Source of the DNA: Streptomyces seoulensis
GTDB taxonomy: Bacteria; Actinomycetota; Actinomycetes; Streptomycetales; Streptomycetaceae
DNA length: 64,000 nt
Reading direction: 5' to 3'
Assembly (NCBI RefSeq): GCF_022846655.1
Contig: NZ_AP025667.1
Span: 285,001-349,000, forward strand
A program made the translations under genes and the position numbers. This document shows, piece by piece, positions 1 to 16,228 of the stretch. Positions within the stretch are counted from its first letter, which is position 1. Each line of letters starts with the position of its first letter. The notes below the pieces were generated by a model, which was not told the DNA's origin, did not search any database, and was given only the letters and a program-made list of their open reading frames with translations.

Positions 1-2855
<2,855 letters not shown>

Positions 2856-2942
2856 AGTTGCTCGCGTCCACTGTGTTGGTTCTGAAACCACGAACAGCAT
2901 CCATGTGCCACACATGGGTTTTGGCTGAAACAGTTTCATAGT

Positions 2943-3061
2943 GTTTCGGTGGTCATAGCGTGAGGGAAACGCCCGGTTACATTCCGAACCCGGAAGCTAA
3001 GCCTCACAGCGCCGATGGTACTGCAGGGGGGACCCTGTGGGAGAGTAGGACGCCGCCGAAC
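2943..3061 (+). rRNA. 5S ribosomal RNA
   Basis: The stretch starts GTTTCGGTGGTCATAGCGTG and ends GGACGCCGCCGAAC. These two ends pair to form helix I, and CGCCCGGTTACATTCCGAAC gives loop B/helix III. It lies about 87 nt after the 23S end, the usual spacing in a 16S-23S-5S operon. Ends are accurate to a few bases. Confidence 0.96.
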
Positions 3062-3706: not shown

Positions 3707-4267
3707 ATGGGAGTTGTGGTTGGTCAGGGGTATGTGGTCCGGGCGGTACGGGAGCAGGAGTGGGGGGATGTGAAGCGGTTGCGGCTGGATGCCCTGCGGG
3801 ACCCGGTCGCTCATCTCGCGTTTCTGGAGACGTACGAGGATGCCGCCGCCAAGCCGGATTCGTTCTGGCAGGAGCGGACCGCCGCGGCCGGCACCGAAGG
3901 CAATGGTGTGCGGCAGTTCGTGGCCGAGGCGCCCGGTGGAGGTTGGGCCGGGTCGGTCACCGTGCTCCTGGAGGAGGGCGGCAGTGAGGACTGGGCCGGG
4001 CATGCGGTCGAGCGGAGGCAGGGGCATGTCGTCGGGGTGTTCGTGCGGGCCGAGCACCGGGGGAACGGGCTGATCCAGGAGCTGCTGGACGCGGGCGTGG
4101 CGTGGGCCTGGGAGCAGGAGGCCGAGCGGGTGCGGCTCTTCGTGCACGCCGACAATCCGCGGGCTCAGGGGGCCTACCTGCGGGCCGGGTTCAAGCCGAC
4201 CGGGCTCGTCGTGTCGTTCTCGAAGAACGAGGACGAGCGGGAGCTGGAGCTCGTTCTAGACCGGTAG
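3707..4267 (+). CDS. GNAT family N-acetyltransferase
   Basis: A 186-residue single-domain GNAT acetyltransferase. The acetyl-CoA loop is seen in VVGVFVRAEHRGNGLIQELL (motif A, R/Q-x-x-G-x-G/A type), followed by LFVHADNPRAQGAYLRAGF, the conserved motif-B end with the N-P-x-A-x-x-x-Y-x-x-x-G-F pattern. The acceptor substrate cannot be told. ATG 3707 is chosen over an in-frame GTG at 3698 because TACCGT ends 7 nt upstream. The stop overlaps by 12 bp the stop of the convergent VirD4-like gene. Confidence 0.85.
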   Translation: MGVVVGQGYVVRAVREQEWGDVKRLRLDALRDPVAHLAFLETYEDAAAKPDSFWQERTAAAGTEGNGVRQFVAEAPGGGWAGSVTVLLEEGGSEDWAGHAVERRQGHVVGVFVRAEHRGNGLIQELLDAGVAWAWEQEAERVRLFVHADNPRAQGAYLRAGFKPTGLVVSFSKNEDERELELVLDR

Positions 4268-5716
4268 GTCCTCGTGTGGCCAGCGGGCGCGGCCCTGTTC
4301 GCGGGAGCGGAGCAGGGCGAGGGTGGGGAGGCCCTGGGCGGTACCGCTGCTGAGCAGCTCGGGGAGCTGGGGGACGGGGGCCACCGCGGCGATGTCGTCG
4401 AGGACCAGGGTGAGTGGTGGGTCGAGCCGACCGGAGGATGACCGTTCGGCCATGCGCCGGCCGTGCTCGACCACGCTGGAGACGAGGGCCGTCAGCAGGG
4501 GCATCGCGCCCGGCCGTGTCCTGGGGTCCTCGATGGGTTCACCGACCACATAAAGCGTGCCCCCTTCGCTGACGAAGGAATCCAGGGCGATCGTGTCGGT
4601 TCGGTGTGGGGTGCATGACTCCCGGATGTTGACCGTGAGGAGCGCGGACAGTGCGCGGCTCGTCAACTCCTGGGCGATGTCCCGGCGTTCCGGGTGCGAG
4701 GTGAGCGCGGCCTCGAGCTCGCCCGCGGAGCCCGGGGCGGCCTTGGGGTGGGTGCGCAGGGTGCGTACCGCGTCCTGGATCTGGGTGCCCTGGGCCCAGC
4801 GGTGGACGTGGCGGACGGTGCGGCCGTCCAGCGCGGCGGCGTGCAGGTAGCTGCGCAGCAGGGTCGTGGCGGTGTCGGTGACGGCCTGGTCGATGCGGGC
4901 TGTGGGCCGGACGGGGGCGAGGAGTGCCGTCGCCCGGCTCAGCGCCGTGGGCCGGTCCTCGCAGCCCGCCGTGGGGGACCAGTGCAGGCGGGCCGGGGTG
5001 TCGCAGCGGTGGGTGGGGTCGTAGAGGAGGACGGGGCCGAGCTTGGCCCGCGCGTCCTTGGTGTCCTGCCACAGGGCCGGGTTCGAGGTGACGACCAGTG
5101 CGGGGCCGGGGGCGTCCTGGAGGGCCGTGGTGGCGCGGGCTTGGCGGGTCTCGGGGGCGCCGTAGAGCAGCGGGCCCTGGGCGGCCGGAGGTTCGGCCGG
5201 GACGTGTTCGACTGCGGGCTCGGGCGGTGCTGCCGGGGCCGGCTGTTCGGTGCGGGGTTCCGGCACCTCGTGCTGCCGCTCCGGCTCCGGCTTCGGCTCC
5301 GGCTCCGGCTTCGTCGGCTCGGGCGGCGCGGTGACCCGGCGTACCCGGCCCGCGCGCCAGCGGGCGATCGTGCCGAGGACGAAGACGGTCAGGACGAGCA
5401 GGATCAGCAACTGGCCGATGAACAGGCCCCAGAAGAGGCCCCAGCCGGGGAGCTGGGCCGGTGGGGTGTCGGGCCAGGCGCCGGCGATGTCGTGGGGGCG
5501 GCCGATGAGGTGGCGTATGGCCAGCGGGGTGCGGGTGAAGGTGAGCGGGGCGGGCCAGCCGCCCCGGGCGAAGAGGGCGGCCAGGCCCGTGGCCGTCCAC
5601 ACCAGTACCGTCATGCCGAGGAGGAAGCCGAGCAGGCCGACCAGCAGGCCGTCCGGGATTCCGCCGCTCTGGCCGGCGCTTCCGGATTCCCGGCCGCCCC
5701 GCTCGTCCGCTCGCAC
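4256..5716 (-). CDS. VirD4/TraG-like membrane protein with degenerate P-loop (cmdA-like)
   Basis: A 486-residue relative of type IV secretion coupling proteins. Two membrane helices (about residues 21-50 and 93-116) are followed by a Pro/Glu-rich linker (about 125-185) and a cytosolic domain. Where VirD4 proteins carry GxxxxGKT this protein reads GAPETRQAR, so the phosphate-binding Gly-Lys-Ser/Thr is missing. The following GPALVVTSNPALWQDT and VLLYDPTH segments still match the family, and the Walker B equivalent is LTLVLDDIA. It may be a non-hydrolysing scaffold. Start is GTG with GGGAGAAG upstream; it is last in the operon, 10 nt after the VirB4-like ATPase. Probably the S. coelicolor cmdA (SCO4126) equivalent; that link is recalled, not searched. 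Confidence 0.78.
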   Translation of the reverse strand: MRADERGGRESGSAGQSGGIPDGLLVGLLGFLLGMTVLVWTATGLAALFARGGWPAPLTFTRTPLAIRHLIGRPHDIAGAWPDTPPAQLPGWGLFWGLFIGQLLILLVLTVFVLGTIARWRAGRVRRVTAPPEPTKPEPEPKPEPERQHEVPEPRTEQPAPAAPPEPAVEHVPAEPPAAQGPLLYGAPETRQARATTALQDAPGPALVVTSNPALWQDTKDARAKLGPVLLYDPTHRCDTPARLHWSPTAGCEDRPTALSRATALLAPVRPTARIDQAVTDTATTLLRSYLHAAALDGRTVRHVHRWAQGTQIQDAVRTLRTHPKAAPGSAGELEAALTSHPERRDIAQELTSRALSALLTVNIRESCTPHRTDTIALDSFVSEGGTLYVVGEPIEDPRTRPGAMPLLTALVSSVVEHGRRMAERSSSGRLDPPLTLVLDDIAAVAPVPQLPELLSSGTAQGLPTLALLRSREQGRARWPHEDLPV

Positions 5717-5726
5717 CCGCTTCTCC

Positions 5727-7139
5727 CTATGCCACCGTCGACTCTGAGTCGCCCAGATGCTGTTCCACGAAGGCCGCGGCCCGCTGTTCGGCCTCCAGCT
5801 CGGCGGCGCGCAGGGCGTCGTCGGCCGCCAGGTCGTCGGAGGACTGGGTCATCGCCCGGTCGGTGAAGACCAGGTTGCGCTCCGTCTCCGTGACCAGGTG
5901 TTTGACCACCTGGACGTTGCCGTTGACGTCCCAGACCGCGATGCCGGGGGTGAGCGTCGGGATGATCTCGACGGCCCAGCGCGGCAGGCCGAGTACCCGG
6001 CCGGTCGCTCTGGCCTCGTCGGCCTTCTGGGCGTAGATGGTCCTGGTGGAGGCCATCTTGAGGATCGCGGCCGCCTCCTTCGCCGCCGCGCCGTCGACCA
6101 CGTCGGAGAGGTGGTGGACGACGGCGACGAAGGACAGGCCGAGGCGGCGGCCGAACTTCAGCAGCCGCTGGAACAACTGGGCCACGAACGGGCTGTTGAT
6201 GATGTGCCAGGCTTCCTCGACCAGGAAGATGCGCTTCTTGCGGTCGGGCCTGATCCATGTGTGCTCCAGCCACACGCCGACGATCGCCATGAGGATCGGC
6301 ATGGCGATGGAGTTGCGGTCGATGTGGGAGAGGTCGAAGACGATCAGCGGGGCGTCCAGGTCGATGCCGACCGTGGTCGGACCGTCGAACATGCCGCGCA
6401 GGTCGCCGTCGACCAGCCGGTCGATGACCAGGGCGACGTCCAGGCCCCAGGCGCGTACGTCGTCTATGGCGACGTTCATCGCCTCGGCGGACTCCGGCTC
6501 GGGGTGGCGGAGTTGCTCGACGATGTCCATGAGGACGGGCTGGCGGTCGACGATGGTCTCGTTGACGTAGGAGTGGGCGACCTTCAGGGCGAAGCCGGAG
6601 CGTTCGTCCAGGCCGTGGCCGAGCGCGACCTCGATGATCGTGCGGAGCAGCGCGAGCTGGCCCGTGGTGGTGATCGCGGGGTCGAGCGGGTTGAGGCGGA
6701 TGCCGTGGTTGAGGGCGGCGGTCGGGTCGAGCCGGATGGGGGTTATCCCCAGCTCCTCCGCGATGAGGTTCCATTCGCCGACGCCGTCCTCGCCCTGGGC
6801 GTCCAGGACGACGACCTGGCGGTCCTTGAAGCGGAGCTGGCGCAGGACGTACGTCTTCTCCAGCGCCGACTTGCCGTTGCCGGACTCGCCGAGGACCAGC
6901 CAGTGCGGGGCGGGGAGCTGCTGGCCGTACAACTGGAAGGGGTCGTAGATGTAGCCCTTCCCGGAGTAGACCTCGCGGCCGATGATGACGCCGGAGTCGC
7001 CGAGGCCGGGGGCGGCCGTCGGCAGGTAGACCGCCTGGGCCTGGCCGGTGGAGGTGCGCACCGGGAGCCGGGTGGTCTCGACCTTCCCGAAGAGGAAGGA
7101 CGTGAAGGCGTCGGTGAGGACGGACAGCGGATCTCGCAT
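5727..7139 (-). CDS. VirB4-like ATPase (cmdB-like)
   Basis: A 470-residue cytosolic ATPase corresponding to the C-terminal motor of VirB4/TraC. Walker A is GESGNGKSA (about 84-92) and Walker B is IFLVEEAWH (about 304-312). Downstream, LKFGRRLGLSFVAVVHHL and the QKADEARATGRVLGL segment are typical of VirB4 motor domains. In this operon the N-terminal part of VirB4 is encoded by the gene just upstream, so the classical protein is split in two. ATG 7139 has AGAGG about 8 nt upstream, overlapping the previous stop. Expected to power assembly or transport by the membrane complex. Probable cmdB equivalent. Confidence 0.88.
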   Translation of the reverse strand: MRDPLSVLTDAFTSFLFGKVETTRLPVRTSTGQAQAVYLPTAAPGLGDSGVIIGREVYSGKGYIYDPFQLYGQQLPAPHWLVLGESGNGKSALEKTYVLRQLRFKDRQVVVLDAQGEDGVGEWNLIAEELGITPIRLDPTAALNHGIRLNPLDPAITTTGQLALLRTIIEVALGHGLDERSGFALKVAHSYVNETIVDRQPVLMDIVEQLRHPEPESAEAMNVAIDDVRAWGLDVALVIDRLVDGDLRGMFDGPTTVGIDLDAPLIVFDLSHIDRNSIAMPILMAIVGVWLEHTWIRPDRKKRIFLVEEAWHIINSPFVAQLFQRLLKFGRRLGLSFVAVVHHLSDVVDGAAAKEAAAILKMASTRTIYAQKADEARATGRVLGLPRWAVEIIPTLTPGIAVWDVNGNVQVVKHLVTETERNLVFTDRAMTQSSDDLAADDALRAAELEAEQRAAAFVEQHLGDSESTVA

Positions 7140-7148
7140 GGAGAGCCT

Positions 7149-8708
7149 CTACCTTCGGATGCCGGTGGCGAACGGGAGGGTGTTCACGAACGCGCGGTGG
7201 TGCTCGCGGTCGCACCACTCCAGCTTCAGGTACGACTTGCCCGCCGAGGCGCGGATGGTGCGCTTGTCGCGGTTGAGCGCCTCGGGGGAGCGGGCGGAGA
7301 CGGTGATGTAGCCGACGAGGTTGACGCCGGCGGCGCCGCTGGCGAGGTCCTCGCCGCGCTGGTCGAGGCGGGAGTTCGCGGCGACGTCGCGCGGGTCGAC
7401 GGTGCGGTTCATCTTGGCGGCGCGGGACGCCTCGGCCTCGTCGTTGGTCTTCTCCGTCAGCATGCGCTCGATGGCGACCTCGGTGGGTTCGAGGTCCATG
7501 GTGACGGCGACGGTGCGGATCACGTCCGGGGTGTGGACGAGGAGGGGGGCGAGGAAGTTGACGCCGACGGGGGTCATCGGCCACTCCTTCACCCAGGCGG
7601 TGGCGTGGCACCAGGGGGCGCGGGTGGTGGACTCGCGGGTCTTGGCCTGGAGGTAGGTGGGCTCCATGGCGTTCAGCTCGGCCGGCCAGGCGTTGCGCTG
7701 GGTCATGGCCTGGATGTGGTCGATGGGGTGGTCCGGGTCGTACATGGAGTGGATCAGGGAGGACAGGCGGCCCTGGCCGAGGGGCTGGCGTACCCGGATG
7801 TCGGCTTCCTGCAGGCGGGAGCAGATGTCGGTGAGCTCGCGGGCCATGACGATGGCGAGTCCGGCGTCGCGGTCGAGCTTGCGGCCGGCCTGGGGGCGGG
7901 CGGCGCGGGCCATGGCGTGGGCCTCGGCGGCCAGGTCGCGGCTGTAGCTCATGCAGGCCACGAGGTAGGCGCGGTGCTGCTCGCTGCTGGTGGACACCAT
8001 GGACTGGAGCTGGTCGTAGGAGCTCTGGAGCCACTCGGGGGAGCGGCCGTCGCCGCGCAGTACGACGTCCTTGGCGTGGGCGTCGGGGTCGGCGGGCAGG
8101 GTGCGGGCCAGCATCTGGATGCGGGTGACGAAGCCGTCGCCGTTGGCCACGTGCTTGAGGAGGGTGCCGAAGCGGTCGACGAGGGCTTCCTGGTCCTCGG
8201 AGTCGCGCAGGCCGACGCCGGGGCCCTCGATCTCGATGGCGGCGGTGACGGTCTTGCGGTCGGCGTGCAGCAGTACGGCGATCTCGTCGGGGCCGAAGGG
8301 GGCGGCGAGCCAGGTGATGCGGCCGATGCCGGGGGGCGGGCCGATCTCGACCTCGCGGCCGTCGAGGCGGATGCCGGACTCCATGACGGGGGAGCGGTAG
8401 ACGGCGGCGCGCTTGACGGTGCGCTTGTAGGAGCGGTTGATCTCGAACCACTTGTAGAAGGTGCGGCGCTTGTACGGCACGTAGACCGCGGCGATCGCGA
8501 GCATCGGGAAGCCGCTCAGGAGCGCGATGCGCAGGGGGAGGGCGGGGACGAGGAGGCCGCACATCATGCCGAGGAACGCGCCGACGACGATCAGGGCGAT
8601 CTCGCCGGACTCGCGGTTGCGGCCGATGATCGCGTTGGGCCGGGCGCGGCCGATGAGATACGTACGGCGGGGCGTGACCGGATGGGACATGTGGGCCTCG
8701 GTCGTCAA
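7149..8708 (-). CDS. SCO6880-type / VirB4 N-terminal-like membrane protein (cmdC-like)
   Basis: A 519-residue protein with an N-terminal pair of membrane helices (about 36-70, IALIVVGAFLGMMCGLL and LLSGFPMLAIAAVYV) of the PrgI/VirB3 kind, then a long soluble region resembling the N-terminal domain of VirB4 and Streptomyces SCO6880-family proteins. No Walker motif is present. The start is TTG at 8708, overlapping the upstream stop as TTGA, because GGAGGTGAAGG stands directly upstream; the next ATG (8690) lacks such a site. With the following ATPase it seems to make a two-chain VirB3-VirB4 unit. Confidence 0.8.
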   Translation of the reverse strand: MTTEAHMSHPVTPRRTYLIGRARPNAIIGRNRESGEIALIVVGAFLGMMCGLLVPALPLRIALLSGFPMLAIAAVYVPYKRRTFYKWFEINRSYKRTVKRAAVYRSPVMESGIRLDGREVEIGPPPGIGRITWLAAPFGPDEIAVLLHADRKTVTAAIEIEGPGVGLRDSEDQEALVDRFGTLLKHVANGDGFVTRIQMLARTLPADPDAHAKDVVLRGDGRSPEWLQSSYDQLQSMVSTSSEQHRAYLVACMSYSRDLAAEAHAMARAARPQAGRKLDRDAGLAIVMARELTDICSRLQEADIRVRQPLGQGRLSSLIHSMYDPDHPIDHIQAMTQRNAWPAELNAMEPTYLQAKTRESTTRAPWCHATAWVKEWPMTPVGVNFLAPLLVHTPDVIRTVAVTMDLEPTEVAIERMLTEKTNDEAEASRAAKMNRTVDPRDVAANSRLDQRGEDLASGAAGVNLVGYITVSARSPEALNRDKRTIRASAGKSYLKLEWCDREHHRAFVNTLPFATGIRR

Positions 8709-10033
8709 CGCCCTTCACCTCCAGAGCGGTTGGTGCTGCTGTTGCGGGTGTTGCTTGCGTGCGGGGTGTTGGCGGGGCTGGGGGCGCGGGGCGCGGGGGC
8801 GGCGGTGCCGCCGCTCTGGGGGGTGCGGCCGCTGTGGGCGGCGACGCCGCCGCTGGCCGGGTTGGCGGGGCGGGGGGTGCTCGCGCTCTGGCCGCCGCCG
8901 CCCGCGTTGCTGTCGGCGCGGGTGCTGTGGGTCTTGATGCCCTGGGCGACGAGGGTGGCGGGGGAGCTGATGACGGCGGCGGCCTTGCCCTCGGCGCCCT
9001 GCATGATGCGGTTGTTGCGGGAGCCGGCGATCTCGTCGCCGAAGCCGGGGACGAAGCGGTAGATCATCGCGCTGGCGAAGATGGCGAGCAGGATGATGGA
9101 GAGGCCGGAGACGACGGCGCCGAAGGCGTCGGGGCCGTTGTCGCCGGAGAGGGCGCCGGCCAGGCCGAGGACGATCACGATGACCGGTTTGACCATGATG
9201 ACGGCGATCATGATGCCGGCCCAGCGGCGGACGTGGCCCCACAGGTTCTTGTCGACGAGGCCCGCGTAGACGACGGTGCCGAGGAGGGCGCCGACGTAGA
9301 GCAGGGCGGCGCGGATGACCAGTTCGAGCCAGAGGACGCCTGCGGCGAGGATGCTGACCAGGGAGACGACGATCAGCATGATCGGGCCGCCGCCGATGTC
9401 GTCGCCCTTGTTCAGGGCGGCGGAGAAGGTGCCGAAGAAGGTGTCGGCCTGGTCGCCGGTGGCTTTCGCCAGTACGTCGGTGACGCCGTCCGCGGCGGAG
9501 ACGACGGTGTAGAGGATCAGGGGGGTGAAGGCGGAGGCCAGCACCGTGAGCCAGAGGAAGCCGACGGCTTCGGAGATGGCGGTGGTGAGGGGGACGCCTC
9601 GTACCGCCCGCTTGGCGACCGCCAGGAGCCACAGGACGAGGGTGAGGATGGTGGAGGCGGCGAAGACCACGGCGTACTGCTGGAGGAACTTCGGGTTCGT
9701 GAAGTCGACGTTCGCCGTCTCCTTCACCGCGTCACTGAGCTTGCCGATGGTCCAGGACGCGGCGTCCGCACAGCCCTTGGCCAGGGAGGAGAGGGGGTCG
9801 AGGGAGGAGGTGAGGGGGTTGTCGGGGGTGAGGCCCTTGCGGGAGGTTCCGCCGCCGCTGCTGTCCTTGTCGCAGAAGTCGCGCGCCGCGCCGTGGATCA
9901 GGTCGCAGGGGTCGTTGCTCTTCGTGGGCTTCGGGCTGGGTGCCGCGAAGGCCCGGGTGGCCGTGAGGACGGCCGCGGTCTGGGCGGCGCCGACGATGCC
10001 GGCCAAGGTGAGTACGCGGCGATCAGCGCGCAT
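8705..10033 (-). CDS. VirB6/TrbL-like polytopic membrane protein (cmdD-like)
   Basis: A 442-residue integral membrane protein. A signal-like helix with AFAAP cleavage pattern (about 8-32) precedes a Cys-containing loop (NDPCDLIHGAARDFCDKD), then about five to six membrane segments between residues 115 and 325, and a low-complexity Ser/Ala/Pro/Asn tail of roughly 100 residues. This topology fits the VirB6/TrbL core channel of type IV secretion systems. Start ATG 10033 has GGAGGG about 8 nt upstream and overlaps the upstream gene by 11 bp; the downstream start overlaps the stop. A longer frame extends upstream but inside the preceding gene. Confidence 0.8.
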   Translation of the reverse strand: MRADRRVLTLAGIVGAAQTAAVLTATRAFAAPSPKPTKSNDPCDLIHGAARDFCDKDSSGGGTSRKGLTPDNPLTSSLDPLSSLAKGCADAASWTIGKLSDAVKETANVDFTNPKFLQQYAVVFAASTILTLVLWLLAVAKRAVRGVPLTTAISEAVGFLWLTVLASAFTPLILYTVVSAADGVTDVLAKATGDQADTFFGTFSAALNKGDDIGGGPIMLIVVSLVSILAAGVLWLELVIRAALLYVGALLGTVVYAGLVDKNLWGHVRRWAGIMIAVIMVKPVIVIVLGLAGALSGDNGPDAFGAVVSGLSIILLAIFASAMIYRFVPGFGDEIAGSRNNRIMQGAEGKAAAVISSPATLVAQGIKTHSTRADSNAGGGGQSASTPRPANPASGGVAAHSGRTPQSGGTAAPAPRAPSPANTPHASNTRNSSTNRSGGEGR

Positions 10034-10841
10034 AGGTGAACCCTCCGTACTCCTCGACCGTCTTCGACATGTCGTCCGCGCTGGAAGCCTTGTCGTCGCC
10101 GGGGACCGGTGCCGGTCCTTCCGTCTGGGAATGCGTGATGATCTTCCAGTCACCGGCTGCCCACTGGAGCTTCATCGTGATGGTGAACCAGCTATTGGTG
10201 ACCGGGTTGGTGGACTTGCTGCCCGCCAGCCCCAGCAGCCCGCTGCACCAGACCGCGACCGTGGCGGTGTCGCCGCCGGACTCGGTGACCTTGGTGCCGA
10301 TCGGGCTCGTGCGTGAGACGAAGGTGGACCCGTTCGGGGCGGCGCCGTCGGCGCTCAGGCCGAGGCTCTGATTGAAGGCGGTCGTGTATGCCTGGTCCAT
10401 CTCCGCCTTCGAACTCGTCACCCTGGACGGGGTCATGACGGTCTGGAGGACGGAGTCACGCCGGGCCTTGTTGAACATCTCCGCCGACCCCAGCGCCACC
10501 GCATAGTTGGCCGCCGCACTCTCCGCCCCCTGTTTCGTGTGGGGGAAGTTCGTCGGGATGCCGTTCTGCTTGGTGGGTACCGGGGTTTCGCCCGAGGCGG
10601 CCGTGGGGGCCGCGGCCGCGTGTTCGGGGCCCTTGGCGGGGCTTTTCGCCGCGGGGGAGTTGTCGCGGTTGGCGAAGGCGATGGCTGCGATGAGGAGGAC
10701 CACCACGCCGACGACCGTGATGAGGCTGCGGGAGGAGGAGCGGGGGGTGCGGCGGGGGGCGCCGCCGTAGGGGTCGCCGCCGGGCAGGTGGGTGCGGGTC
10801 TGCCCGGTGTCGGGATAGCCGTGCTCGCCTGAGGTGCTCAT
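10023..10841 (-). CDS. VirB8-like single-pass membrane protein (cmdE-like)
   Basis: A 272-residue bitopic protein: a short Pro/Arg-rich cytosolic N-terminus, one membrane helix (about 39-57, SLITVVGVVVLLIAAIAFA), an Ala/Pro-rich stalk, then an extracytoplasmic domain of about 170 residues ending in FTYAR. The layout (one helix and a C-terminal domain with SWFTITMKLQWAAGDWKIITH, as in NTF2-like folds) matches VirB8/TcpC-type scaffold proteins, but similarity is by architecture rather than signature residues. It overlaps the VirB6-like gene by 11 bp, indicating translational coupling. Confidence 0.68.
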   Translation of the reverse strand: MSTSGEHGYPDTGQTRTHLPGGDPYGGAPRRTPRSSSRSLITVVGVVVLLIAAIAFANRDNSPAAKSPAKGPEHAAAAPTAASGETPVPTKQNGIPTNFPHTKQGAESAAANYAVALGSAEMFNKARRDSVLQTVMTPSRVTSSKAEMDQAYTTAFNQSLGLSADGAAPNGSTFVSRTSPIGTKVTESGGDTATVAVWCSGLLGLAGSKSTNPVTNSWFTITMKLQWAAGDWKIITHSQTEGPAPVPGDDKASSADDMSKTVEEYGGFTYAR

Positions 10842-10978
10842 GCCGCGTACGCCCTCTCCGCCTCGTGTTCATACGACGGTAGCCGGGCTGGTTCTCGCGC
10901 GGGCGCGGTGTGGTGACTCGACATCAGGGAAACGCAACCTCAGCCGGTGGACACGACGGACGGGTGGGGGACGGGGTG

Positions 10979-11287
10979 TCAGACAGCCATGCCGTACACG
11001 ATGGTGAACAGCGTGCCGAGGGAGCCGATGATGAAGACCCCGGTGAGACCCGCGATGATGAGTCCCTTGCCCTGTTCCGCGCTGAAGGTGTCCCGCAGTG
11101 CGGTGGCGCCGATGCGCTGTTTGGCCGCGCCCCAGATGGCGATGCCGAGGCAGAGCAGGATGGCGACGGCCATCACCACCTCGATCATCACCTTCGCTTC
11201 GTTGCCCAGGCTGCCGAAAGGCCCCCAGTCCGGAGCGATCCCGCCGATGATGGTGTTGATGTCTCCCTTGTCGGCCGCAAAGAGCAT
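10979..11287 (-). CDS. VirB2-like small membrane subunit (cmdF-like)
   Basis: A 102-residue protein with two hydrophobic helices (about 35-55, VMIEVVMAVAILLCLGIAIWG, and 78-100, LIIAGLTGVFIIGSLGTLF) joined by a short basic loop. That is the hallmark of VirB2/TrbC-like pilin or channel subunits. ATG 11287 is preferred because GGCGGTGA lies 5 nt upstream; a GTG at 11296 would add three residues. It is the first gene of the six-gene minus-strand operon, 137 bp before the VirB8-like gene. Confidence 0.68.
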   Translation of the reverse strand: MLFAADKGDINTIIGGIAPDWGPFGSLGNEAKVMIEVVMAVAILLCLGIAIWGAAKQRIGATALRDTFSAEQGKGLIIAGLTGVFIIGSLGTLFTIVYGMAV

Positions 11288-11585
11288 GTAAGTCACCGCC
11301 CCTGGTGGGTAGTTGTGCCGCTCCTCTGCGGTGTGCAGAGGTCAGGACTCATTGTCGCCGACAACGTCGCCTTCGTATGTCGACTTGGCGGCATTCACTG
11401 GCGGGTCTCGTGCATTCGGCGCGTACGGTCACTCTGTGTATCACGGCAGGTCACGCCGGGCAATGACGCGGGAGCGAAACCTGTGGCGTGGTTCCGTCGT
11501 TGGGCCCTCTTACGGCCCTTCGGCTCCCGGCGCGGTTTCTGACGGCCGGTCGGGTGAGACGTCGAGACGATGTTCTCACGCGGTG
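11288..11585. other. Intergenic region upstream of the T4SS-like operon
   Basis: About 300 bp with no supportable gene. It should hold the promoter of the minus-strand membrane-complex operon and the 3' end of the tetR transcript. A small hairpin CCTCTGC-GGTGT-GCAGAGG (11323-11341) lies in the probable operon leader. No operator-like palindrome was recognised. Confidence 0.5.
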
Positions 11586-13421: not shown

Positions 13422-14189
13422 ATGAAGCGCGGATCGGGCGACCCGGTCAGTTCGCGGCCCGCACTGCTGGGCGCGGTGGTGATGCTCGCCCTGACCTCGG
13501 CCTCGGTGGCGGCGGCCGATGACGGCCGCGGCCCGCTGGAGGTGACCGTGACGGCGTCCGCCGACGCGCGGACCGCACGGGTCGGCGCGCTTTTCGGCGC
13601 GGACGGCGCCGGACGGCCCGAGCACGGCCACTTCTGCACCGCCTCGGTCGTGCACAGCCCCGGCCGCGATCTCCTCGTCACCGCCGCGCACTGCGTGACC
13701 CGTGCCGACGGGAAGCTGTTCTTCGCGCCGGGCTACCGGGACGGCAGGGCGCCGTACGGGATGTGGCCGGTGCGCGGGCGGGTGGTGCCCGCGGAGTGGA
13801 CGGCGGACCGGGACGAGGACAGTGACGTGGCCTTCGCGCACGTCGCCGAGGTGGACGGCAGGCGGGTCGAGGACGTGGTCGGCGCGAACCGGTTCACCAG
13901 CGGGACCGTGACCGGCGCGACGGCCGTCACCCTCGTGGGTCAGCCCGACGCCCGTGAGGCGCCGGTCATGTGCACCGACCGGCCGGTGGCGCGGGGCCGT
14001 ACCCAACAGCGCGTGCACTGCCCCGGCTTCACGGCCGGGACCAGCGGCAGCCCGTGGGTGAACGGGGCCGGGCAGGTGGTCGGGGTGCTCGGCGGACACG
14101 AGCAGGGCGGTTCGACGGCGGACGTCTCCTACAGCGTGGTGCTGGGGGGCCGGGCCGCCGCGCTGTACCGGACGGCCATCGGGTCCTGA
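13422..14189 (+). CDS. Secreted trypsin-like serine protease
   Basis: A 255-residue S1-family protease. An N-terminal signal peptide (ALLGAVVMLALTSASVAAAD) targets export. The catalytic triad is readable: His in LVTAAHCV, Asp in DEDSDVAFAH and Ser in FTAGTSGSPWV. Cys pairs near the active-site His (FCTASVV...AAHC) support the chymotrypsin fold. It resembles the V8-like/trypsin-like peptidases exported by Streptomyces. RBS-like GGAGGGAGTGAGGA precedes ATG 13422. No propeptide or C-terminal binding domain is evident. Confidence 0.88.
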   Translation: MKRGSGDPVSSRPALLGAVVMLALTSASVAAADDGRGPLEVTVTASADARTARVGALFGADGAGRPEHGHFCTASVVHSPGRDLLVTAAHCVTRADGKLFFAPGYRDGRAPYGMWPVRGRVVPAEWTADRDEDSDVAFAHVAEVDGRRVEDVVGANRFTSGTVTGATAVTLVGQPDAREAPVMCTDRPVARGRTQQRVHCPGFTAGTSGSPWVNGAGQVVGVLGGHEQGGSTADVSYSVVLGGRAAALYRTAIGS

Positions 14190-14292: not shown

Positions 14293-15294
14293 GTGCGCAA
14301 AGTATGGGTGGCCGGGGGCGCCGCGATCGGGCTCGGCCTGAGCTTCGTGATGCTGCTCGTCGTCGGGGTGTACATCGTCGCGGGCAACCTCGCCGGCGGT
14401 GTCGCCGCCGGCGGCGTCGGGCTGGCCAAGGGTGCCGTGCCGGCGGCGTACCAGACGCTGGTGCAGAAGTGGGGCAACCTCTGTCCCGCCATCAACCCCG
14501 CGCTGCTGGCGGCCCAGTTGTACCAGGAGAGCGGGTTCAACCCCGGTGCCCGCAGTCCCGCCAAGGCGCAGGGGATAGCGCAGTTCATCCCCGGCACCTG
14601 GGCCACCCACGGGGTGGACGGGGACGGCGACGGGGACCGGGACGTGTGGGACCCCGACGACGCGATCCCCTCGGCCGCCTCCTACGACTGCGAACTGGCC
14701 AAGTACGTCAAGGACGTTCCCGGTGACGTCTCGGCCAACATGCTGGCCGCCTACAACGCGGGCGCGTACGCGGTCATCCGGTACGGGGGTGTGCCGCCGT
14801 ACCGGGAGACCCGGAACTACGTGAAGACGATCACGACGCTCTCCAAGAGCTTCGCCGCGCCGGTCGCCCGGGTCGACCCCTCCCGGCAGGCCGCCGGGGC
14901 CATCGCCTACGCGCAGAGCAAGCTCGGCACCCCCTACCTGTGGGGCGGCACCGGTACGGCCGCGCAGAGCGGGCGGTTCGACTGCTCGGGGCTGACCCAG
15001 GCGTCGTACGACAGTGTCGGGATCAAGCTGCCGCGCGTGGCGAACGACCAGTACAACGCGGGTCCGCATCCCGCGCGGAACGAACTGCTCCCCGGTGACC
15101 TGGTCTTCTTCTCGCACGACCCGGCCGACTCGCGGGCCATCCACCACGTGGGCATCTACGTGGGCGGCGGCTACATGATCGACGCGCCGCGCACGGGCGC
15201 GGTGATCCGGTTCGACCCGATCGACGGTGTCGACTACTTCGGTGCCACCCGGGTCACCGAGGATGGCGCGAAAGCGCTCCCCACCCGTGTGTAG
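14293..15294 (+). CDS. Bifunctional lytic transglycosylase / NlpC-P60 wall hydrolase
   Basis: A 333-residue membrane-anchored wall hydrolase. One N-terminal helix (about 5-33) precedes a SLT-type lytic transglycosylase domain (about 55-190: AAQLYQESGFNPGA with catalytic Glu, AQGIAQFIPGTWATHG, and MLAAYNAGAYAV) and a C-terminal NlpC/P60 endopeptidase (about 205-320: FDCSGLTQASYDSVG with nucleophilic Cys, and HHVGIYVGGGYMIDAP with His). This domain pair is that of CwlT/VirB1-like hydrolases, which open peptidoglycan for Gram-positive type IV secretion systems. It may serve the membrane complex encoded 3 kb away. GTG start has GGGGGAGGG about 8 nt upstream. Confidence 0.9.
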   Translation: MRKVWVAGGAAIGLGLSFVMLLVVGVYIVAGNLAGGVAAGGVGLAKGAVPAAYQTLVQKWGNLCPAINPALLAAQLYQESGFNPGARSPAKAQGIAQFIPGTWATHGVDGDGDGDRDVWDPDDAIPSAASYDCELAKYVKDVPGDVSANMLAAYNAGAYAVIRYGGVPPYRETRNYVKTITTLSKSFAAPVARVDPSRQAAGAIAYAQSKLGTPYLWGGTGTAAQSGRFDCSGLTQASYDSVGIKLPRVANDQYNAGPHPARNELLPGDLVFFSHDPADSRAIHHVGIYVGGGYMIDAPRTGAVIRFDPIDGVDYFGATRVTEDGAKALPTRV

Positions 15295-15523
15295 CGGAGC
15301 GTCAACCCACCCCCTGAGCTGCGCGTACGGGTATCTCTTCGATAACGTCTGAGTGATCATTCGGTGGAGGGTGGAACGTATTCACAGGTGCTGTGCGTTC
15401 CTGTTCACGTAGCCGAGCAGACGTCAGTGCGCCAGTGCAACGGAAGCGGATCTACGACCCACGGGGGGTTGGCGCGACGCACACTGGGTGCGTCCGGTAA
15501 GACGACGAAGGGGCCGCAGCACC

Positions 15524-16228
15524 ATGGCTGTACTCGCCGAATCCGGATCTAACCCCGACGTCGAGCTGCTCTATGACATCAACGGCCTGGCGAAGGCCGC
15601 TCCGCACTGGTTCGACCGGGTCATGGAGTTCGTCGGCGAGTACGGGCTGCCGGTCGCCATGGTCCTGCTGGTCCTGGCGTGCTGGCTGACGGTCAGGCGC
15701 AAGGGCGGTCCCGACGCGGTGTCCTCGGTGACCGCGCTGGTCTGGGCGCCGCTCGCGGCGGCCGTGGCCGTACTGGTGAACGTGCCCATCCGGGGCTTCG
15801 TGGAGCGGCCCCGCCCCTTCATGGACCACCAGGGGCTCGACGTCCTCATCGCGGGCAAGAGCGACTACTCATTCGTCAGCGACCACGCGACGATCACCAT
15901 GGCGCTCGGTGTCGGCCTCTTCGTCGCCAACCGCCGCTTCGGCATCGCCGGTATCGCGCTCGCCCTGCTGGAGGGCTTCTGCCGGGTCTTCATGGGCGTG
16001 CACTACCCGACCGACGTGATCGGCGGCTTCGCCCTCGGTACGGCGGTCGCGCTGCTGCTGTCCCCGCCCGCCACGGCGCTGCTCACCCCGCTGGTGCGGG
16101 CCATCGCCCGTTCCCCCCGCGCGGGGAGGCTGGTGAGCGCCGGTCCGGTGGGCGGTGAGCGCGGCGACGCGCTGTTCTCCGGCGGGCGAGAGCCGGCCGG
16201 GTCGGGGGAGAAGGACCTGGCCGCCTAG
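15524..16228 (+). CDS. PAP2 superfamily phosphatase
   Basis: A 234-residue integral membrane phosphatase of the PAP2 family. Conserved blocks: RGFVERPRP (motif 1), FVSDHATITMALG (motif 2 with catalytic His) and RVFMGVHYPTDVIGG (motif 3, R-x5-H-x3-D). Five to six hydrophobic segments fit a lipid phosphatase such as undecaprenyl-pyrophosphate or phosphatidate phosphatase, with the active site outside the membrane. ATG 15524 follows GACGAAGGGGCC; the 229-bp upstream gap shows no gene. A strong terminator follows. Confidence 0.87.
   Translation: MAVLAESGSNPDVELLYDINGLAKAAPHWFDRVMEFVGEYGLPVAMVLLVLACWLTVRRKGGPDAVSSVTALVWAPLAAAVAVLVNVPIRGFVERPRPFMDHQGLDVLIAGKSDYSFVSDHATITMALGVGLFVANRRFGIAGIALALLEGFCRVFMGVHYPTDVIGGFALGTAVALLLSPPATALLTPLVRAIARSPRAGRLVSAGPVGGERGDALFSGGREPAGSGEKDLAA

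Follow-up and report, generated by a model that had tools for sequence, protein, structure and literature searches.

A type IV secretion-derived operon with a degenerate coupling protein as a likely envelope machine for sporulation in Streptomyces

A 64-kb stretch of a one-contig, 6.54-Mb Streptomyces genome (positions 285001 to 349000 of NZ_AP025667.1, hereafter the window) carries six tightly packed minus-strand open reading frames (ORFs) at 4256-11296 that are the equivalent of the cmdABCDEF cluster (SCO4126-4131) of Streptomyces coelicolor. On balance, we favor the view that cmd is derived from a type IV secretion system (T4SS) and constitutes a vertically inherited envelope machine for sporulation, independent of VirD4 and with a main cargo other than DNA. 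The cluster has no working coupling protein and no relaxase was found near it, which makes DNA export by the usual route unlikely. Because the coupling part is dead and relatives need the cluster for sporulation, the probable task of the machine is to export protein or remodel the cell wall, rather than to move DNA. Earlier work, which treated cmd as a set of developmental membrane genes, had already described the genes, their phenotypes and a homology to VirB4, and had suggested a type IV-like channel. New, within the literature searched, are a tested part-by-part T4SS list, a coupling protein that is dead across the family, the assignment of a TgdA-type hydrolase as VirB1, a parallel in Frankiaceae and a link to EccE of type VII secretion. 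If correct, Streptomyces possesses a core T4SS that serves the cell's own development, and cmd and tgdA are joined as one system.

Equivalence to the S. coelicolor cluster, which the initial annotation had proposed, was judged by gene order, residue numbering and neighborhood rather than by alignment to the S. coelicolor sequence. The clusters are alike in gene order and number, in a lytic transglycosylase-type (SLT) gene near cmdF, in being represented by a single close orthologue across almost all Streptomyces and in the ATPase lysine: the CmdB Walker A motif, GESGNGKS from residue 84, places the lysine at 90, the position changed in the published K90 mutant. The six genes with overlaps or small gaps described earlier were confirmed, with spacers of 9-10 bases at cmdA-cmdB and cmdB-cmdC and 137 bases at cmdE-cmdF, and overlaps of 4 bases (cmdC/cmdD) and 11 bases (cmdD/cmdE). 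The operon boundary previously placed at 11287 needs correction, as this is an internal ATG of cmdF, whose ORF starts with GTG at 11296. The end of an rrn operon and the wall hydrolase gene had both been missed (Table 1), and the hydrolase as a system part, the near-universal conservation and the Frankiaceae parallel lay outside what the annotation covered.

Table 1. Features of the window, numbered from its first base
Feature	Position	Strand	Description
rrn operon end	1..3061	+	23S (cut at window edge) and 5S rRNA; Rfam
cmdA	4256..5716	-	degenerate VirD4/TraG coupling protein; Walker A lost, ends after Walker B
cmdB	5727..7139	-	VirB4 motor ATPase domain; Walker A GESGNGKS
cmdC	7149..8708	-	SCO6880 family; NF042935, 171.8 bits
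cmdD	8705..10033	-	polytopic, VirB6/TrbL-like; start ATG at 10033
cmdE	10023..10841	-	VirB8-like by predicted fold, bitopic, NTF2-like domain; DUF8175, PF26526
cmdF	10979..11296	-	105 aa, two transmembrane segments; heads the operon; VirB2-like in size, topology and position
TetR gene, short-chain dehydrogenase	between cmdF and tgdA-type gene		
trypsin-like protease gene (also between cmdF and tgdA-type gene)	13422..14189		flanks tgdA-type gene
tgdA-type gene	14293..15294	+	VirB1-like wall hydrolase; divergent from operon, 3 kb upstream of cmdF
PAP2-family gene	15488..16228		flanks tgdA-type gene

Three T4SS parts were found: a VirB4 ATPase with an intact nucleotide site, the VirB8-like CmdE and a membrane-anchored VirB1 hydrolase. 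CmdB contains AAA_10 (E = 2e-13) and TraG P-loop domains with a weak HerA-domain match, matches VirB4/TraC profiles and the solved VirB4-like chain 4ag5 (E = 5.8e-6), and retains its Walker A motif in 80 of 80 Streptomyces loci. CmdE has a single hydrophobic segment by hydropathy and is VirB8-like in its predicted fold, for which the best 26 of 50 PDB matches are type IV secretion proteins; its NTF2-like domain probably lies outside the cell. With the VirB4 site of CmdB and homologues in the same order on plasmids (see below), this structure-prediction check, which the initial annotation had suggested and which was run on CmdE, bears out its claim of T4SS ancestry. The predicted VirB8-like NTF2 fold corresponds to the C-terminal half of DUF8175 (PF26526). 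SCO4130 appears in a glycoprotein table from a study that also found some intracellular glycoproteins.

The tgdA-type protein combines SLT (PF01464, E = 1.1e-15) and NlpC/P60 (PF00877, E = 1.5e-24) domains behind an N-terminal hydrophobic segment (hydropathy peak at residues 12-30). An SLT gene is divergent from cmdF in 49 of 80 Streptomyces loci, where upstream DNA extended to about 5.8 kb at most; in other genera it lies directly next to cmdF, again divergently, in 17 of 20 loci; the SLT plus NlpC/P60 pair also occurs in one plasmid cluster and one Frankiaceae cluster. We assign this hydrolase as the VirB1 part of the cmd system. Its neighbor, a PAP2-like ORF, adjoins the tgdA-type gene in S. 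viridochromogenes too (L031, judged by eye). One locus of the family (L140) lacks both cmdF and tgdA within the 12.2 kb examined.

The remaining membrane parts are placed provisionally, by profile and topology. CmdD has several hydrophobic segments, and its profile matches genes of three Streptomycetaceae plasmid clusters (E = 7e-79 to 7e-38); the homologues of two plasmids match TrbL_4 weakly, below cut-off (E = 0.03), and seven other homologues tested gave no TrbL_4 match. CmdC begins with a hydrophobic, putatively VirB3/PrgI-like stretch followed by a region resembling the VirB4 N-domain: in the CD1110 VirB4 profile it corresponds to positions 140-362 (E = 0.22) and CmdB to the adjacent 370-707, and a Frankiaceae CmdC homologue matches PrgI weakly (E = 0.048). 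CmdF, with a two-transmembrane topology taken from hydropathy, was found in 75 of 80 Streptomyces loci at an identity of at least 92% (median, 97%). Among 21 loci searched, its profile matches small genes of three plasmid clusters (L101-L103; E = 5e-19 to 3e-21) and nothing in the others. Topology, size, position and these plasmid homologues make CmdF a candidate VirB2-like pilin. Median pairwise ratios of nonsynonymous to synonymous substitution (dN/dS) of 0.05-0.46 indicate purifying selection on all six genes; CmdE evolves fast (0.46) compared to the nearly unchanging CmdF and CmdB (0.053 each).

The initial annotation described the product of cmdA as VirD4-like. A relationship to coupling proteins stands, whereas a working one does not. 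CmdA gives a sub-threshold TraG-D_C match (E = 0.0021, covering positions 1-49 of 126) and aligns along its length with the coupling proteins of other clusters, with the P-loop lost and the C-terminal lobe cut off. In a Walker A alignment of 71 Streptomyces CmdA proteins and that of the window, none of the 72 has GK at the P-loop; all 11 coupling proteins from plasmid, ICE-like (integrative and conjugative element) and second-locus clusters have GK[STG]. Among 14 CmdA proteins from other genera of the family, 10 lack GK and 4 have GK followed by arginine. With its Walker A destroyed and its C-terminal lobe missing, CmdA is not a working coupling protein, and the active VirD4/TraG ATPase of a conjugative T4SS was not found in it. 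Judged from its sequence, CmdA thus speaks against a DNA cargo taken through a normal coupling protein. The dead site fits the published genetics, in which only the cmdA single deletion sporulates normally, and would explain why sporulation can dispense with cmdA. No description of a dead coupling protein was found in the literature searched on cmdABCDEF, cmdB sporulation and SCO4127, a search that mostly did not reach subscription papers.

Homologues of CmdA, CmdC, CmdD and CmdF stand in the same order in plasmid clusters (profile search). The order shared with actinobacterial plasmid T4SS clusters (S. alboflavus pMDJK44.2, Rothia p1 and others; SLP2 by report) is SLT/C40, VirB2-like, VirB8-like, VirB6-like, SCO6880, VirB4 and coupling protein. 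In contrast to cmd, the four plasmid coupling proteins examined keep GK[STG], and three of five plasmids examined have a typed or annotated relaxase, whereas none of three relaxase families occurs near cmd. By CmdB identity (about 48%), L101 and L103 are among the plasmid clusters nearest to cmd; their coupling proteins are intact and no relaxase is typed in them, and the place that SLT plus NlpC/P60 takes in cmd is taken there by an M23 peptidase gene, divergent from the operon.

The cmd system is core to Streptomyces and, on our reading, vertically inherited. Of 121 Streptomyces genomes, 120 have a CmdB of at least 88% identity, and in 119 of 120 other species sampled it is 88-98% identical; a single genome (G120) gave no CmdB match. 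Across Streptomycetaceae, it occurs at 81% or more in 61 of 61 genomes from 17 of 17 genera, in one genome in two pieces. Class-wide, 95 of 296 genomes have a match at E = 1e-20 or better, and those outside Streptomyces do not exceed 37% identity except in one genome (G180), at 76%. The cmd CmdB proteins fall on one side of a branch with support of 99/99 that is present in 100% of bootstrap trees; their nearest neighbor is unsure because the plasmid branches are long. This search for copies across Streptomyces, which the annotation had recommended, supports its suggestion of a cellular role, as do the deletion phenotypes of relatives.

Those phenotypes come from the S. coelicolor cmd paper (PMC2782261). 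Single deletions of cmdB, C, D, E or F, or deletion of all six, give pale, poorly sporulating colonies, and cmdA is alone among the single deletions in giving normal dark grey sporulating colonies. Mutants show abnormal branching, delay and irregular septation, and actII-orf4 is switched on early. CmdB is membrane-bound, and the cmdB transcript rises at aerial growth; changes to K90 abolish complementation, with the caveat from the authors that the protein may be destabilized. The same paper discusses VirB4 homology and proposes a type IV-like channel, so that the T4SS link, which the initial annotation had put forward for testing, is not new.

Numbered next to cmdF in S. coelicolor, SCO4132 (tgdA) is a putative lytic transglycosylase gene, reportedly acting in differentiation (Xie 2013, by its title). 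A later transposon screen names cmdBCDEF, tgdA and SCO5677, and cmdA is absent from its list; mutants of tgdA and of cmdBCDEF show the same antibiotic phenotype, and both sets of genes take part in forming aerial hyphae.

We propose that CmdB would use ATP to assemble an envelope complex of CmdC, CmdD and CmdE where aerial hyphae grow or septate, and that TgdA would open the peptidoglycan locally. The complex could then extrude a short CmdF pseudopilus, or let proteins cross the envelope with no working coupling protein involved. If it failed, aerial growth and the placement of septa would suffer, and chromosome segregation as a secondary effect. Protein export or a CmdF pseudopilus is the activity we favor, by analogy with T4SSs without VirD4, for which protein export, pilus elaboration and DNA uptake are on record (PMC12857230). 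Like Bordetella Ptl, Brucella VirB, Bartonella Trw and Helicobacter ComB, cmd would have a core without a coupling protein; unlike these Gram-negative systems, it belongs to a Gram-positive bacterium, is inherited vertically, retains a coupling-protein remnant that lacks the ATP site and works in sporulation. A more specific proposal, that cmd is a coupling-protein-dead Gram-positive T4SS exporting protein or a CmdF pseudopilus for aerial hyphae and spores, and that settled DNA-free systems of this kind arose at least twice (in Streptomycetaceae and Frankiaceae), is one that we put forward tentatively and hold to be somewhat doubtful as a whole.

Several observations weigh against a sporulation machine with a cargo other than DNA. 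In the published mutants, 6-8% of the spores are anucleate and DNA is uneven, an outcome also to be expected of a machine that moves DNA. Actinorhodin is overproduced in deletions of cmdB, cmdD, cmdE and cmdA-F and not in those of cmdC, cmdF or cmdA; as cmdC and cmdF also show no excess, cmdA is not alone on that trait (PMC2782261 for both phenotypes). The single-gene phenotypes come from S. coelicolor, those of S. lividans and S. avermitilis being cluster disruptions only (same source). The dN/dS of CmdA (0.343, near 0.333 for CmdD) means that it is under purifying selection and therefore kept for a job other than ATP-driven coupling; CmdA does something, perhaps structural. An unlinked second ATPase, such as SCO5677, might supply coupling. 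The lack of a relaxase is not distinctive, since, among 261 plasmid records that carry a CmdB relative, 140 are typed non-mobilizable, including two of the five examined (L101 and L103). The assignments of CmdD, CmdC and CmdF are drawn from profile homology, position and topology.

An alternative hypothesis, which we consider unlikely, is that cmd is an envelope scaffold or sensor without transport, T4SS-shaped, which positions TgdA and feeds back on development, with CmdB needed for assembly only. The antibiotic phenotype common to tgdA and cmdBCDEF mutants, their joint action in aerial hyphae, the early activation of actII-orf4 and the lack of a known cargo would all suit such a scaffold; a dedicated motor that needs its ATP site and a highly constrained VirB2-like CmdF (dN/dS, 0.053) instead suggest extrusion or transport.

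About as unlikely, in our view, is that CmdB is a DNA pump of the FtsK or VirB4 kind; it would drive the ends of the chromosome through sporulation septa as these close, the remaining Cmd proteins forming its channel. Speaking for such a pump are the spores without DNA and the incompletely separated DNA that the cmdB and cmdA-F deletions show, the AAA_10 and HerA-domain matches and the authors' own Phyre matches of CmdB to RecA and FtsK motors (PMC2782261). However, no relaxase of three families lies near cmd, the coupling protein has no ATP site and its deletion leaves sporulation normal, and transfer of an SLP2-derived plasmid was unchanged in the cluster deletion (data not shown by the authors; same source). 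Moreover, the mutant in a wall-hydrolase gene shows the same antibiotic phenotype, and aerial branching defects and delay accompany those of septation. That cmd is a defective integrated conjugative element, a chance fossil beside the rrn operon, is very improbable: T4SS genes with no relaxase or integrase found nearby could be so read, and a screen of 11 Streptomyces strains reports a defective mid-chromosome ICE in all of them (PMC9513070), which may be cmd, but this reading is contradicted by conservation (88-98% CmdB identity in 119 of 120 other species; 17 of 17 genera), purifying selection and clear deletion phenotypes.

The absence of a relaxase and an integrase from the window, noted in the initial annotation, extends to the surrounding genome for the families searched. 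The relaxase families PF08751 and PF03389 have no match across the whole genome and PF03432 has a single match, at 6.389 Mb and so not near cmd, in a search confined to these three relaxase families. Of tyrosine integrases, the closest to cmd lies some 480 kb off, at 775.5 kb (serine integrases and att repeats not searched). Neither a nearby tyrosine integrase nor the patchy distribution of an ICE was thus found, CmdB being carried by 120 of the 121 Streptomyces genomes and by all 61 of Streptomycetaceae.

A second family appears to have a comparable, widely kept chromosomal system. A VirB4 orthologue (at least 78% identity) is present in 26 of 29 Frankiaceae genomes, the family label being taken from protein names, and forms a separate clade with support of 100/99. 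In six loci of 18 kb each (L146-L150 and L159), CmdE-, CmdC- and CmdB-like genes occur in all six, a CmdD-like gene in five (in one at E = 0.063) and a divergent SLT gene in four, the one tested being SLT plus NlpC/P60. None of the six has a cmdF profile match or a match to the CmdA profile, which finds 11 other coupling proteins. A 2008 secretome paper reports a single VirB4-like gene near the replication origin, conserved in three Frankia strains (PMC2266912). From the two sets of clusters, it seems that a T4SS without working coupling either became established in each family independently or predates the two.

Comparison with type VII secretion revealed a further relationship, covering EccE rather than other parts of that system. 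The EccE model TIGR03923 matches one Frankiaceae CmdC (L146:8013-9512) at E = 7.7e-11. Over nine genomes it finds true EccE above cut-off in four Streptomyces and, below cut-off, the CmdC-type gene in three Frankiaceae genomes (E at most 1.8e-10) and in one further T4SS cluster (G317, E = 3.6e-4), as well as a site within the expected cmdC of one Streptomyces (G004, E = 0.066); the CmdC of the window alone gave no match up to E = 1. In hhalign, 39 CmdC rows aligned with 4 EccE rows at a probability of 93.9 (E = 1.6e-7, 347 columns), and four unrelated profiles scored 0.2-0.5. By these two profile methods, CmdC is homologous to EccE, a starting point for working out the relationship of type IV to type VII secretion. 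No statement of this homology was found in the parts seen of the literature searched on EccE, VirB4, type VII secretion and SCO6880; a 2026 paper describes another structural link between the two systems, TraF with EssB/YukC (PMC13037476).

About 1.2 kb separates the end of the cmd operon from the 5S gene of the rrn operon. An rRNA match downstream of cmd is a conserved landmark, found in 45 of 80 Streptomyces loci, although 59 of the 80 have less than 5 kb of DNA beyond cmdB, and in five of the six loci with a full 10 kb. The 64-kb window contains no tRNA genes. CmdE is 96% identical to a protein of S. sp. NPDC017615, 91% to one of S. griseoluteus and 90% to one of S. seoulensis. The same genome carries a second, distinct T4SS locus at 4.77-4.80 Mb (L087 and L088) with SLT-, CmdC- and VirB4-like genes and an intact coupling protein about 15 kb further on; no TrwC or MobA_MobL relaxase was found genome-wide. 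At 2.356 Mb, a protein with a degenerate AAA domain (L085) shows weak similarity to CmdB around the P-loop, where its sequence reads GHPGSGTST, with the lysine lost.

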